A program made the position numbers and the translations under genes. 31,918 nucleotides of DNA from a virus. The stretch lies in the IMG/VR virus record IMGVR_UViG_3300025087_000237, positions 1 to 31,918 of that record. The stretch is one strand, 5' to 3'. This document shows, piece by piece, positions 13,318 to 25,666 of this stretch. The notes under the pieces were generated by a model, which was given only the letters and a program-made list of their open reading frames with translations, had not been told where the DNA came from and did not search any database. The stretch's first letter is position 1, and each line of letters begins with the position of its first letter.

Positions 13318-15239
13318 TATTTTATCCTAAACCAGTTATAGGTTAATGCGGAAGTACCCGCCGCCGGTCGATTGACAATCAATGTATCGGTTTTTGCTTC
13401 CACAGAAAGCACATCATTGGAAGTAATGACCGCCCCGGTAGAGATAGCCCAGAAATAATCAGTAGAGGCAAAATCTGCATCGAGAATGGTATCCGCTATT
13501 GCCGTAGTGGTAAAAACATTAGAGCCTCGATAAGTTGCGCCAAGCGTTAAAGCGGTAAAACTTCCCGCAAGTGTTCCACCGGTGACATATCCTTGAGCGG
13601 CGGTAATTGAAGGAAGCCAAGTAGTAGTATCTGCGCCAATTACGATAATTGCTGTATCAAGTAAAGAAGCGCTGACAATATGGTCAAAATTAGCGGAATC
13701 CGCATCGATATAGCCGTCAAAGATGGCATTGCCGGATGAATCAACCGAAGCACGAGTTCCATCAGTTGCCGTACCTAAATTCAACGGCGTTGCCTCAACT
13801 GTCAAGATATTAATTTCTTCCGTAGTAATACTATCCCCTACAACTAAATCATTGTCAAGAGCAAGTGTCCCGCTGGAGTCGATAGATGCGGCGGTAGCGT
13901 TACTGGCAGTTCCAATATTAAGCGGTGTAGATTCAACTGTAATCAAACTAAGTTCTTCCGCCTTTATACTGTCTGCTACTGATAAATCATTGTCTAATGT
14001 CATTGTTCCAGTCGAATCCCCAGCAATTCTTGTTCCATCACTTGCCGTTCCGACAACAAATGGAGTTGCTTCCACTGTTAAGATATTCAATTCTTCCACT
14101 TTTGCACTATCGCCAACTGCAATGTCATTATCAAGATTTAAAGTTCCACTGGTATCGGCGGAAATTCTCACTCCATCTGAGGCTGTCCCAATCACAAAGG
14201 GAATTGCTTTGGCGGAAATAATTGCCAAACTATCGGTAACTGTTACCGTATCCGCCGTAATAACTGCAGCGTGGAGTGAATCCAAAGAGATATACCCATC
14301 GGCAATAATATTCCCGGACGAGTCAATAGAAACCACCGTAGTATTAGAAACCGTTCCAATATTGAATGGTGTTGCCTCGACTGTGATAATGCTTATCTCT
14401 TCGGCTTTAATGCTATCTGCAATACTTAAATCATTGTCAAGTGTTCCCGTTCCGGTTGAGTCGAAAGAAACTCTTGTTCCGTCCGAAGCCGTCCCTAAAA
14501 CAAAAGGCGTAGCTTCAACAGACAGGATATTGACTTCCTCTACTTTTAGGCTATCACCTACCGATAAGTCATTATCGAAAGACATACTGCCGGATGAGTC
14601 TGCCGAAATCTTATCCGCTTTAGTATCCGTTCCAATTTGGAACGGCGTTGCTCTGGTAGATTTGATTAGGACAGAAAGCCGGGCACGGATTGAATCCGCC
14701 GCCATCCAGCCATCACTGTTGACATTTCCACTTGAGTCGATATACGCCGCAGATGCGTTACTGGCGGTAGCGATATTTAGAGGAGTTGCCTCGTCTGTGA
14801 TTATACTCAATTCCTCTGCTTTTATGCTATCGGCTACAGACAGGTCATTGGCAAGAGTTAATGTTCCGGTTGAGTCAGTAGATATTTTGGTAGCCGTTGC
14901 GGTTTTGATAAGAAATGGAGTTACTTCGACCGTAAGGATATTAATTTCCTCACATTTTATACTATCGGCAAAGACCCCGTCATTATCCGAAGTTACCGTT
15001 CCGGTAGAATCTATCGATAATCGAGTCCCGTCTGAGGGAGTCCCCACAATGAACGGCACTGCTTCGGCACTGGTGATATTCAGACTATCGGTGATGCTTA
15101 AGGTATCGATATTGCAGTCATCGAAGTCAGTTTTCTGGATGTGGATGCTATCGGCTAATTGCGCGCTTCGTATCTTAGATTGAGCAAAAAGCAAAGAAGG
15201 GAGCAATAGCATTATGACTAAGATTAGTAATTTTTTCAT
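13317..15239 (-). CDS. Secreted repeat protein with about ten 46-residue beta repeats
   Basis: The product is 640 residues. Residues 1-20 (MKKLLILVIMLLLPSLLFAQ) are a signal peptide with likely cut at FA-Q. Residues about 45-510 consist of roughly ten tandem repeats of 46 residues, each with the pattern ADSIKAEELSIITVEATP, then a short GTASDGTR or GTASNATA loop, then IDSSGTLALDN. One copy is ten residues longer. The C-terminal 110 residues are unique. The repeats are clearly recent enough to align by eye. Such arrays make solenoid or fibre shafts. The gene stands between capsid and adaptor genes, where a signal peptide is unexpected. A site AGAAGGAAG lies upstream of the ATG. Confidence 0.8.
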   Translation of the reverse strand: MKKLLILVIMLLLPSLLFAQSKIRSAQLADSIHIQKTDFDDCNIDTLSITDSLNITSAEAVPFIVGTPSDGTRLSIDSTGTVTSDNDGVFADSIKCEEINILTVEVTPFLIKTATATKISTDSTGTLTLANDLSVADSIKAEELSIITDEATPLNIATASNASAAYIDSSGNVNSDGWMAADSIRARLSVLIKSTRATPFQIGTDTKADKISADSSGSMSFDNDLSVGDSLKVEEVNILSVEATPFVLGTASDGTRVSFDSTGTGTLDNDLSIADSIKAEEISIITVEATPFNIGTVSNTTVVSIDSSGNIIADGYISLDSLHAAVITADTVTVTDSLAIISAKAIPFVIGTASDGVRISADTSGTLNLDNDIAVGDSAKVEELNILTVEATPFVVGTASDGTRIAGDSTGTMTLDNDLSVADSIKAEELSLITVESTPLNIGTASNATAASIDSSGTLALDNDLVVGDSITTEEINILTVEATPLNLGTATDGTRASVDSSGNAIFDGYIDADSANFDHIVSASLLDTAIIVIGADTTTWLPSITAAQGYVTGGTLAGSFTALTLGATYRGSNVFTTTAIADTILDADFASTDYFWAISTGAVITSNDVLSVEAKTDTLIVNRPAAGTSALTYNWFRIK

Positions 15240-23812: not shown

Positions 23813-23836
23813 AAAATCAAAATCAAAAAGCGAGAG
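23813..23836 (+). promoter_or_regulatory. Ribosome landing site, type AGCGAGAG, gene at 23841
   Basis: A G-free stretch of A, T and C (23813-23829) leads to AGCGAGAG (23829-23836) four bases before the ATG. The same box recurs before other early genes. Only GAG or GAGAG can pair with a standard anti-Shine-Dalgarno end, so the free spacer probably helps. Confidence 0.6.
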
Positions 23837-23840
23837 AAAA

Positions 23841-24419
23841 ATGTTAAAAATTAAAAAATTAGAACTGGCAGAGTCCCGCCTCGACGCCAAATATGTATAT
23901 AATGCTAAATTGACACAAAAAATTGTCAATGGAGCCAATTGGGAATATCGAGGAGAATGTATTGATATGGACAATGATGGACATTGTATTTGTGGACATT
24001 TTATCAAACGGGGATTCCCCATTTATCATAAAACTGAAAATAAGACTTTGATTTTAGGGAGTGAATGTATAAATTATTTTCAAGGCGTTAATAATGACCT
24101 GGTCGAAAGTGTTTTGAAAAAGATTAAGTCAGTGGAGGCCGATATTGCCGTGTTAAGGGCTGCAGCAAAACAAGCCGAGAAACAATCCGAGGTGATCGAT
24201 TTAAACTCAGAATATATGTGTATTTTGACAGAGGTCAAACAAAGATATGCTAATTATCGACATAATGGGGTAAAAGCGCCTTATGAAATTTGGTGTGCAG
24301 TTGCCTCAAATAAATACTGTTTCCCAGATAATCCACCAGAATATTCAAGAATCTGTGATTTAATTCGTTGGTACAAAAACAATATCGAATCGTTAAAACA
24401 GATTGCTAATATCTGTTAA
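23841..24419 (+). CDS. Early protein with possible zinc-binding Cys/His cluster
   Basis: The product is 192 residues and is the first early gene. Residues 35-77 contain CIDMDNDGHCICGHFIKRGF and, later, LILGSECINYF. The Cys-x-Cys-Gly-His then Gly-Ser-x-Cys arrangement is a plausible zinc knuckle, of a kind I have seen in uncharacterised phage proteins. The middle (about 85-120) is a helical, charged stretch, probably coiled coil. A second Cys-rich aromatic segment is near the end. No enzyme motif is visible. As first early gene, under its own leader, it may be a host takeover factor, but that is only positional. Confidence 0.7.
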   Translation: MLKIKKLELAESRLDAKYVYNAKLTQKIVNGANWEYRGECIDMDNDGHCICGHFIKRGFPIYHKTENKTLILGSECINYFQGVNNDLVESVLKKIKSVEADIAVLRAAAKQAEKQSEVIDLNSEYMCILTEVKQRYANYRHNGVKAPYEIWCAVASNKYCFPDNPPEYSRICDLIRWYKNNIESLKQIANIC

Positions 24420-24422
24420 TCA

Positions 24423-24470
24423 CCTTCCGCCGCACTTTAGAAGTGAACCGGGCAGCTCCCGGCGGCGGAA
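24423..24470 (+). ncRNA. Compact RNA three-way junction between early genes
   Basis: The sequence folds without mismatch. An eight-pair outer stem (24425-24432 with 24463-24470, TTCCGCCG/CGGCGGAA) encloses two hairpins, CACTT-TAG-AAGTG (24433-24445) and CCGGG-CAGCT-CCCGG (24448-24462), leaving only two unpaired bases at the junction. It starts four bases after the upstream stop. It may be a processing or stabilising element. It is not a terminator, since no U run follows. Confidence 0.75.
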
Positions 24471-24498
24471 CAAACTAAAATCAACTAAAAAGCGAGAG
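24471..24498 (+). promoter_or_regulatory. Ribosome landing site, type AGCGAGAG, gene at 24504
   Basis: A G-free spacer with repeated ACTAA (24471-24491) follows the three-way junction directly and ends in AGCGAGAG (24491-24498), five bases before ATG. Sequence and order match the sites before the genes at 23841 and 24794. Confidence 0.6.
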
Positions 24499-24503
24499 TA
24501 AAA

Positions 24504-24680
24504 ATGAAAAGTGAAATTATTAAATTTAGCAGAGATTTAGTTATTAAAAATCTCTGCTGTTTGCCGAGGGGAACAGGCGCAAAATATTTAGAGGTTATTC
24601 GCGGAGAGGGCAATGAATATGTTGCAAAACAGTGGAGACGGAAAATCGTACCGGGTATATTAATTGAACTGTCTAACTGA
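24504..24680 (+). CDS. Small 58-residue early protein
   Basis: The frame starts ATG at 24504 behind the AGCGAGAG box and ends TGA at 24680. The product, beginning MKSEIIKFSRDLVIKNLCCL, is basic and contains an Arg/Lys-rich segment KQWRRKIVPG. Its last four codons are also one strand of stem I of the hammerhead ribozyme and its stop codon is part of the ribozyme core, so the two cannot be used by ribosome and ribozyme at once. No family is recognised. Confidence 0.7.
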   Translation: MKSEIIKFSRDLVIKNLCCLPRGTGAKYLEVIRGEGNEYVAKQWRRKIVPGILIELSN

Positions 24681-24721
24681 TGAGGCTATAAAGCCGAAAC
24701 CCGCGAGAGCGGGTCTTAGAC
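24671..24721 (+). ncRNA. Type I hammerhead ribozyme
   Basis: All conserved parts are present in order. Stem I 5' strand GTCTAA (24671-24676), core CTGATGA (24677-24683), stem II GGCT-ATAA-AGCC (24684-24695), core GAA (24696-24698), stem III ACCCGC-GAGA-GCGGGT (24699-24714) including the A15.1/U16.1 pair, then C17 (24715), then stem I 3' strand TTAGAC (24716-24721). The open ends are in stem I, which makes it type I. Predicted cut is between 24715 and 24716, after GUC, leaving a 5'-hydroxyl RNA for the next gene (24794). Short stem II and stem I suggest modest speed unless loops interact. Confidence 0.93.
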
Positions 24722-24723
24722 TA

Positions 24724-24754
24724 CAGGCAAGCCGCCTGCCTGCAAAGGCAGCGG
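24724..24754 (+). promoter_or_regulatory. Alternative hairpins just behind the ribozyme cut
   Basis: Two hairpins share bases. CAGGC-AAGCC-GCCTG (24724-24738) excludes CCGcCTGCC-TGCAAA-GGCAGCGG (24732-24754, one bulged C). After cleavage either would lie within ten bases of the new 5' end and could protect it. The second is the same kind of stem ending in CGGAAC that precedes the G-free spacer in other leaders. Confidence 0.55.
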
Positions 24755-24787
24755 AACTAACTAAATCAACTAATCAAATAGCGAGAG
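24755..24787 (+). promoter_or_regulatory. Ribosome landing site, type AGCGAGAG, gene at 24794
   Basis: A G-free spacer of 25 bases with ACTAA repeats (24755-24779 approximately) runs to AGCGAGAG (24780-24787), six bases before the ATG. Confidence 0.6.
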
Positions 24788-24793
24788 TATAAA

Positions 24794-25036
24794 ATGATAC
24801 CTGCAATTAAAATTGTGAAAATTGAAGAAGGCTATAAAGTAAGCAAAGTATGGGGATCACCTTCATACTCAAGAAAAGCCGTCTTATTATTAGAAAATGG
24901 GGCTGAAATTAACTACACAATCAATCACCATAAATGTGCAAAAGTGAAACAACACAAAGCCGGTGATGAAATAAGCGGGTTATTTTACGAGGAGGATTGT
25001 AATGGATTTAATTTCACTATATTTTGCACTCTTTAA
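24794..25036 (+). CDS. Small early protein, unknown
   Basis: The product is 80 residues with alternating strands (IKIVKIEEGYKVSKVWGSPS, then AVLLLENGAEINYTINHHKC), as in a small all-beta fold, and two His and three Cys in the second half that are not in a recognisable metal motif. It is cut off from the upstream gene by the hammerhead ribozyme, so its mRNA begins at 24716 when cleaved. It is followed by the long structured non-coding region. No family is known to me. Confidence 0.7.
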   Translation: MIPAIKIVKIEEGYKVSKVWGSPSYSRKAVLLLENGAEINYTINHHKCAKVKQHKAGDEISGLFYEEDCNGFNFTIFCTL

Positions 25037-25067
25037 TCAGTAAACCCTTAATATTTACTAATCACTT

Positions 25068-25576
25068 TTCCGGGACTTGACTTTCTTAGCGCGGGTCTTG
25101 AGTTAATCGAATAACTCCCCGGAACTAACTTAATCCTATTTGACAAAAGGATCGCTTCTTATCGACTCTCAGCATAGATGGTGAGAGTACAGACGCTTTC
25201 ATAATCAGTTAAATAGGATAAAGCCTAAATAACAGGTACTAAGACCTTACTTTTCAATGTGCTTAGTAACACACTGAAACATTTATCGACTGCTATACAA
25301 GGATTTGCGCTCTTGTGTTTAATTGTATAGCAGTTATAAGCAGTAATGCAAGAGCCTGACACTGGTCTTGACTAAACCGGGGTCTGAGTTGTTCTTTGTA
25401 ACCGATGGACGCTTTACCTAAGCCGGAACTGAACTGCTTACTTGCTTACAACAAACCGGGCGGAGCTTTCAAGTTATCGAAAACTCCCCATCTTTCGGGC
25501 GAGGTATGTCTAACCTGTTCTTGACTGCTTGGCAAGAATACCCTTTGATAAAAGGTGATTACTGGTAAAAGTCAAA
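25068..25576 (+). ncRNA. Large structured non-coding RNA candidate, pseudoknot and possible kissing loop
   Basis: No protein frame fits between 25037 and 25666. At least eleven local stems can be drawn. Main ones are 25068-25074/25118-25124 enclosing GAGTTA-ATCGAA-TAACTC (25100-25117), a 12-pair stem with one G-U (25133-25144/25208-25219) enclosing ACTCTCA/TGAGAGT (25165-25188), and a perfect 12-pair stem 25289-25300/25323-25334. The last has GCTCTTG (25309-25315) in its loop, which is complementary to CAAGAGC (25349-25355), giving an H-type pseudoknot. Loop ACTAAG (25238-25243) matches CTTAGT in the loop of a 9/10-pair hairpin (25252-25279), a possible kissing pair. Further hairpins lie at 25419-25440, 25462-25487, 25518-25538 and 25542-25555. 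Size, place in a phage and a tRNA-like neighbour recall ROOL and GOLLD RNAs. Class membership is not shown. Confidence 0.7.
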
Positions 25577-25583
25577 AGCGGCG

Positions 25584-25632
25584 GCGGGAATTAGCTCAAA
25601 GGATTTGAGGGGTTCGACTCCCCTCTCCCGCT
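25584..25632 (+). tRNA. tRNA-like remnant without anticodon arm (tRNA-Gly-like)
   Basis: The ends GCGGGA (25584-25589) and TCCCGC (25626-25631) pair like an acceptor stem. AGGGG-TTCGACT-CCCCT (25608-25624) is a perfect T arm with the invariant TTCGA. TTAGCTCAAAGG resembles the start of a D arm and can pair as CTCAAA-GGA-TTTGAG, sharing two bases with the T arm. The anticodon arm is absent and the length is about 49, so it cannot decode. It is a degenerate tRNA, a tRNA mimic, or a processing signal. No CCA is encoded. Confidence 0.6.
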
Positions 25633-25660
25633 CTAAACTAACTAAACTAAAAGAGAGAGA
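25633..25660 (+). promoter_or_regulatory. Ribosome landing site, variant AGAGAGAGA, gene at 25667
   Basis: Directly behind the tRNA-like element comes a G-free spacer with three ACTAA copies (25633-25652) and AGAGAGAGA (25652-25660), six bases before ATG. It is the same plan as in the other early leaders but with GAGAG in place of GCGAGAG. Confidence 0.55.
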
Positions 25661-25666
25661 ACTAAA

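Follow-up and report, generated by a model that had tools for sequence, protein, structure and literature searches.

A type I hammerhead ribozyme at the end of a phage gene and the placement of type I and type III hammerheads between phage genes

A small gene of an uncultured tailed phage ends flush with a type I hammerhead ribozyme. We consider it quite probable that this ribozyme is functional and cuts a polycistronic transcript, leaving a protected 3′ end on the upstream mRNA and a 5′-hydroxyl on the downstream mRNA, and that translation may delay the cutting. The element is a fresh example of a known phage hammerhead device rather than an oddity. When hammerheads of many phages are compared, a positional rule is seen: An upstream gene ends directly at or within a type I ribozyme, whereas type III ribozymes are clear of the upstream gene and lie just before the downstream gene. 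The window analyzed here is a whole viral record of 31,918 bases, and its sequence identifies the source as a tailed phage: The minus strand, elsewhere in the record, encodes terminase, portal, and head proteins.

Hammerheads had previously been found in clusters flanking single genes in prophages, and were proposed to divide long phage transcripts, by cutting, into mRNAs of gene length (Perreault et al. 2011, PMC3088659). Cleavage was demonstrated for some of these clusters in vitro and for one in E. coli (PMC3088659). A later review called the role of prokaryotic hammerheads open (2017, PMC6155905). Like the ribozyme in the window, the hammerheads reported in 2011 reside between phage genes. 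However, they are clustered, whereas the window carries a single ribozyme, and the main text of that report does not mention stop codons (PMC3088659). A literature search, incomplete for subscription journals, found no report of stop-codon overlap or of the contrast between types I and III. The most likely role of the ribozyme described here is the one put forward in 2011, to cut polycistronic phage mRNA.

Table 1. Features of the ribozyme locus, and type III-like hammerheads of cultured phages
Feature	Position	Strand	Basis
Upstream gene, 58 aa	24504–24680	+	ORF list; relatives by tblastn
Stem I, 5′ strand GUCUAA	24671–24676	+	Sequence; helix covaries in relatives
Catalytic core CUGAUGA; contains stop codon TGA of upstream gene (24678–24680)	24677–24683	+	Sequence, strict scan
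Stem II GGCU/AGCC with AUAA loop	24684–24695	+	Fold, covariance model; loop recurs in 53 viral stretches
Core GAA (G12 A13 A14)	24696–24698	+	Sequence, strict scan
Stem III ACCCGC/GCGGGU with GAGA loop; closed by A15.1–U16.1	24699–24714	+	Fold, strict scan, covariance model
C17; predicted cut between 24715 and 24716	24715	+	Hammerhead consensus
Stem I, 3′ strand UUAGAC; predicted new 5′ end of downstream mRNA	24716–24721	+	Sequence, fold
UA adjoining stem I	24722–24723	+	U in 15/15 and A in 14/15 related AUAA-loop hammerheads
Hairpin in downstream mRNA leader	24732–24754	+	Minimum-energy fold
Probable ribosome-binding site GCGAGAG; recurs before neighboring genes	24781–24787	+	
Downstream ORF, 80 aa, without recognized family	24794–25036	+	
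Type III-like hammerheads, Pseudomonas phages	L129 1150–1200; L128 985–1030; L130 1054–1113		

The complete type I hammerhead occupies positions 24671–24721 of the plus strand, where direct reading and a strict scan give stems I, II, and III of 6, 4, and 6 bp. Every position of the invariant core is present (C3 U4 G5 A6 N7 G8 A9, G12 A13 A14, A15.1–U16.1, and H17). Loops close stems II and III while stem I is open, which is the type I topology. A preliminary description of this DNA had claimed a complete core with three stems, and this is borne out by direct reading, by the strict scan, and by the minimum-energy fold. That description was also correct that the 5′ strand of stem I is coding sequence, as the last codons of the upstream gene (CTG TCT AAC TGA) enter stem I and the core, and that the stop codon of this ORF is part of the catalytic core (Table 1). 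The AUAA loop and the U(A) flank of stem I are common to the window and related hammerheads. Judging from sequence, the UA that adjoins stem I probably makes a tertiary contact with loop II.

The minimum-energy fold corresponds exactly to the hammerhead structure (−20.3 kcal/mol, z = −3.6), and none of 200 shuffles was as good. When the same scanner was run on the whole window after dinucleotide shuffling (3,000 replicates), 17 loose hammerheads were found. None of the 3,000 gave an equally good hammerhead, and a chance origin was therefore rejected. A covariance model trained on 15 type I AUAA-loop hammerheads from other phages, with the window excluded, matches the window with a score of 70.1 bits (E = 2e-18). 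Neither the strict scanner nor the covariance model detects a second hammerhead in the window. The presence of a single copy, together with the fact that cleavage itself is only predicted, from family membership, would be compatible with a decayed or inactive look-alike that has been retained by chance. However, a decayed copy is expected to show altered core bases, and here the core and the stems are perfect and the match to an independent model reaches 70 bits. We regard such a look-alike as very improbable.

Relatives of the ribozyme are common in viral sequences. A pattern that fixes the core together with the beginning of stem III occurs in 65 viral stretches, many of which carry two to five complete hammerheads that are positioned between genes and a few hundred bases apart. 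A second pattern leaves everything free except the core, the AUAA loop, and the pair that closes stem II (18 fixed bases). This pattern has 54 matches in 53 viral stretches, and stem II is formed in all 54. Complete hammerheads account for 52 of these 54 matches (37 type I and 15 type III). In 85,000 bacterial and archaeal genomes (257 Gb), the second pattern yields seven matches, which by our estimate for 18 fixed bases is near the chance expectation; three of the seven are complete hammerheads.

The preliminary description had suggested that relatives be compared for covariation. All three stems do covary, with the relatives being other phages rather than the same locus. The score is 0.99 for set A3, which excludes the window, versus at most 0.18 for slid helices, and 0.62 for the larger set A1, which includes the window, versus at most 0.09 (slid-helix controls span 0.02–0.18 across sets), although the rows were chosen by a scanner that demands minimal pairing, so the pairing percentage is inflated. 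The pattern test is cleaner evidence because its matches were not selected for pairing. The AUAA-loop phage hammerheads (including loci L093, L096, and L114) share with the window the core, a 4-bp stem II, a 6-bp stem I, a U followed mostly by A past stem I, and a site at a gene end. They differ in being associated with other genes and other phages, and several of the contigs carry two to five copies.

At curated cutoffs, Rfam 15 calls no hammerhead in the window. The best Rfam match is to RF02275 (Hammerhead HH9), which scores 23.3 bits against a cutoff of 52. This family has the same core topology and the UAC after stem I, but its loop II is CAAAAA rather than the AUAA of the window. A search with the Rfam type I model had been suggested as a check on the ribozyme; this model, RF00163 (Hammerhead_1), has by name the same fold but does not match anywhere in the window, even with the threshold relaxed to E = 10. 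Likewise, Rfam 15 at curated cutoffs calls no hammerheads in 18 related loci (L014, L044, L061, L093, L114, and others), and our scanner identifies complete hammerheads in these uncalled loci. The Rfam cutoffs are thereby shown to overlook this class of phage hammerheads.

The ribozyme lies between phage genes and on the same strand, with an ORF on each side, in a set of small plus-strand genes that begins at 23841. By tblastn, a viral contig encodes a relative of the upstream-gene protein, with 63% identity over the best-matching segment (query residues 4–56). There, the 58-aa protein aligns with part of a longer frame (L003 3001–3162) as a small domain. The protein also matches a stretch of Methanosarcina virus MetMV with 43% identity (tblastn). 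Searches of viral contigs with the terminase, the RecT-like protein, and both flanking genes revealed no close phage relatives, and cultured phages provide weak matches only, to the portal and RecT-like proteins. Elsewhere in the window, a plus-strand ORF of 486 codons (13723–15183) is antisense to a minus-strand ORF of 640 codons. It has no Pfam match and is probably not a gene.

Several other potential structures are present near the ribozyme. The leader of the downstream gene includes the parts CGGAACTAACTAAATC and AAAAAGCGAGAGTAAAA, which recur before consecutive genes (23825–23841, 24466–24503, 24752–24792, and 25120–25135) and look like one shared 5′ leader module per gene. A GC-rich three-way junction with an 8-bp closing stem (24425–24470, fold z = −2.3) directly precedes the leader of the gene that starts at 24504, a place that matches that of the hammerhead and hairpin before the next gene. 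The region from 25037 to 25666 (∼630 nt) holds no plausible plus-strand gene and includes a strong fold (25130–25225, z = −5.5). It matches no Rfam family and is possibly a structured noncoding RNA. Within this region, a tRNA-like minihelix (25583–25632) combines 13 paired bases with a UUCGACU T-loop and lacks an anticodon arm. ARAGORN finds no tRNA at this site and the fold is no stronger than those of shuffles (z = 0.3); the minihelix could be a processing signal of the RNase P type.

To place the overlap between ribozyme and stop codon in context, 112 distinct type I hammerheads were collected from viral contigs. A neighboring ORF, defined as at least 45 codons long and ending no more than 60 nt from the core, is present for 103, and stop positions are numbered relative to C3. 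For 101 of the 103, the stop codon lies within −21 to +15 of the core; among random anchors from these contigs with an ORF end nearby, 712 of 2,248 do so. The stop overlaps the ribozyme itself in 65 of the 103. The stop is most often at +1, where it is the first TGA of CUGAUGA (18/103), as in the window. Thus, the coupling is not unusual as had been supposed, and stop-codon overlap is ordinary for phage type I hammerheads.

One account of this overlap is compaction only, wherein the ribozyme fills a short spacer and any in-frame stop is used, with no functional link to translation. In agreement with this account, stops are found in all three frames, either just before or just inside the ribozyme, and downstream starts are also close behind. 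In the type I set these starts are concentrated 20–40 nt past the cut, and in the window the gap from cut to start is 78 nt and includes the extra hairpin. Furthermore, related phages differ in stop position: Homologous genes with homologous ribozymes have the stop at −3 versus +1, or at −10/−7 versus +1. Because the stop moves between homologous sites, the exact overlap of stop and core is not strongly conserved. We give compaction as the sole cause about an even chance of being correct.

Type III hammerheads present a difficulty for this account. Among type III phage hammerheads with a neighboring upstream ORF, which are mostly of the same loop class, none of 11 overlaps the stop codon, although these cases come from other phages, the samples are small, and the counts ignore relatedness. 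Their stops are located 12–60 nt upstream, and the ribozymes sit just before the downstream gene. This absence of overlap suggests that genome compaction may not be the full explanation for the type I arrangement. After cleavage at a type I hammerhead, the upstream mRNA would keep stems II and III at its 3′ end, whereas with a type III hammerhead it is the downstream mRNA that would keep stems I and II, at its 5′ end. Each type thus appears suited to the gene whose end it forms. The cultured Pseudomonas phages UFV-P2, NV1, and Rembedalsseter have type III-like hammerheads near the genome start (Table 1). The UFV-P2 ribozyme, with its relatives in the other two phages, resembles that of the window in its core and 4-bp stem II, but it has type III topology and an AGYA loop. 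It is the leader of the first annotated gene and has no upstream gene end. Because it precedes the first gene, phage hammerheads in general need no translated upstream gene.

In the mechanism that we propose for the window, the ribozyme would sever the polycistronic transcript of the rightward operon between 24715 and 24716. This would give an upstream mRNA that extends 35 nt past its stop codon and closes with stems II and III as a pair of hairpins, followed by a 2′,3′-cyclic phosphate, and this 3′ end may resist 3′ exonucleases as a terminator hairpin does; an effect on mRNA stability is what we infer from this predicted structure. The downstream mRNA would begin with a 5′-hydroxyl and a 16-nt tail, followed by the hairpin and then the ribosome-binding site. 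The hairpin had been placed ten bases or less past the cut, but the minimum-energy hairpin starts 16 nt after it, at 24732. Because the ribozyme contains the stop codon, its folded form would be incompatible with a ribosome that is terminating there, and translation may therefore delay cutting.

A ribosome with a stop codon in its A site covers about 12 nt past the first base of the stop. With this leading edge, stem I would come within reach of the terminating ribosome at 98 of the 103 type I sites, and the footprint indicates that the ribosome should occupy stem I in the window. Competition between termination and folding is therefore physically expected. The earlier proposal that cleavage occurs only between ribosomes is too strong, since folding and cutting can precede the first ribosome. 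A more elaborate scenario is a translation-gated switch, in which ribosomes ending on the core TGA hold the ribozyme unfolded. Cutting would then be largely confined to times of poor upstream-gene translation, and the phage would use this to adjust the proportions of linked and separate mRNAs. The stop within the core of the window, the reach of the ribosome into stem I, and the lack of overlap among type III hammerheads, which simple packing may not fully explain, are consistent with such gating. However, the stop position differs between homologous sites, UGAUGA itself supplies stops in one frame so that overlap arises easily, and fast hammerheads can cut ahead of the first ribosome. We consider a gated switch possible but rather unlikely.

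The positional rule for types I and III makes the ideas of mRNA processing and ribosome competition directly testable, and UFV-P2, NV1, and Rembedalsseter are convenient laboratory systems. A broader generalization, which we advance only as an unlikely speculation, is that type I hammerheads joined to gene ends are in wide use among phages as translation-sensitive cutters, and type III hammerheads as untied leaders of downstream genes. If translation gating does operate, the cutting of operon mRNA would report how well the upstream gene is translated, with ribosome and ribozyme in competition for the same bases.
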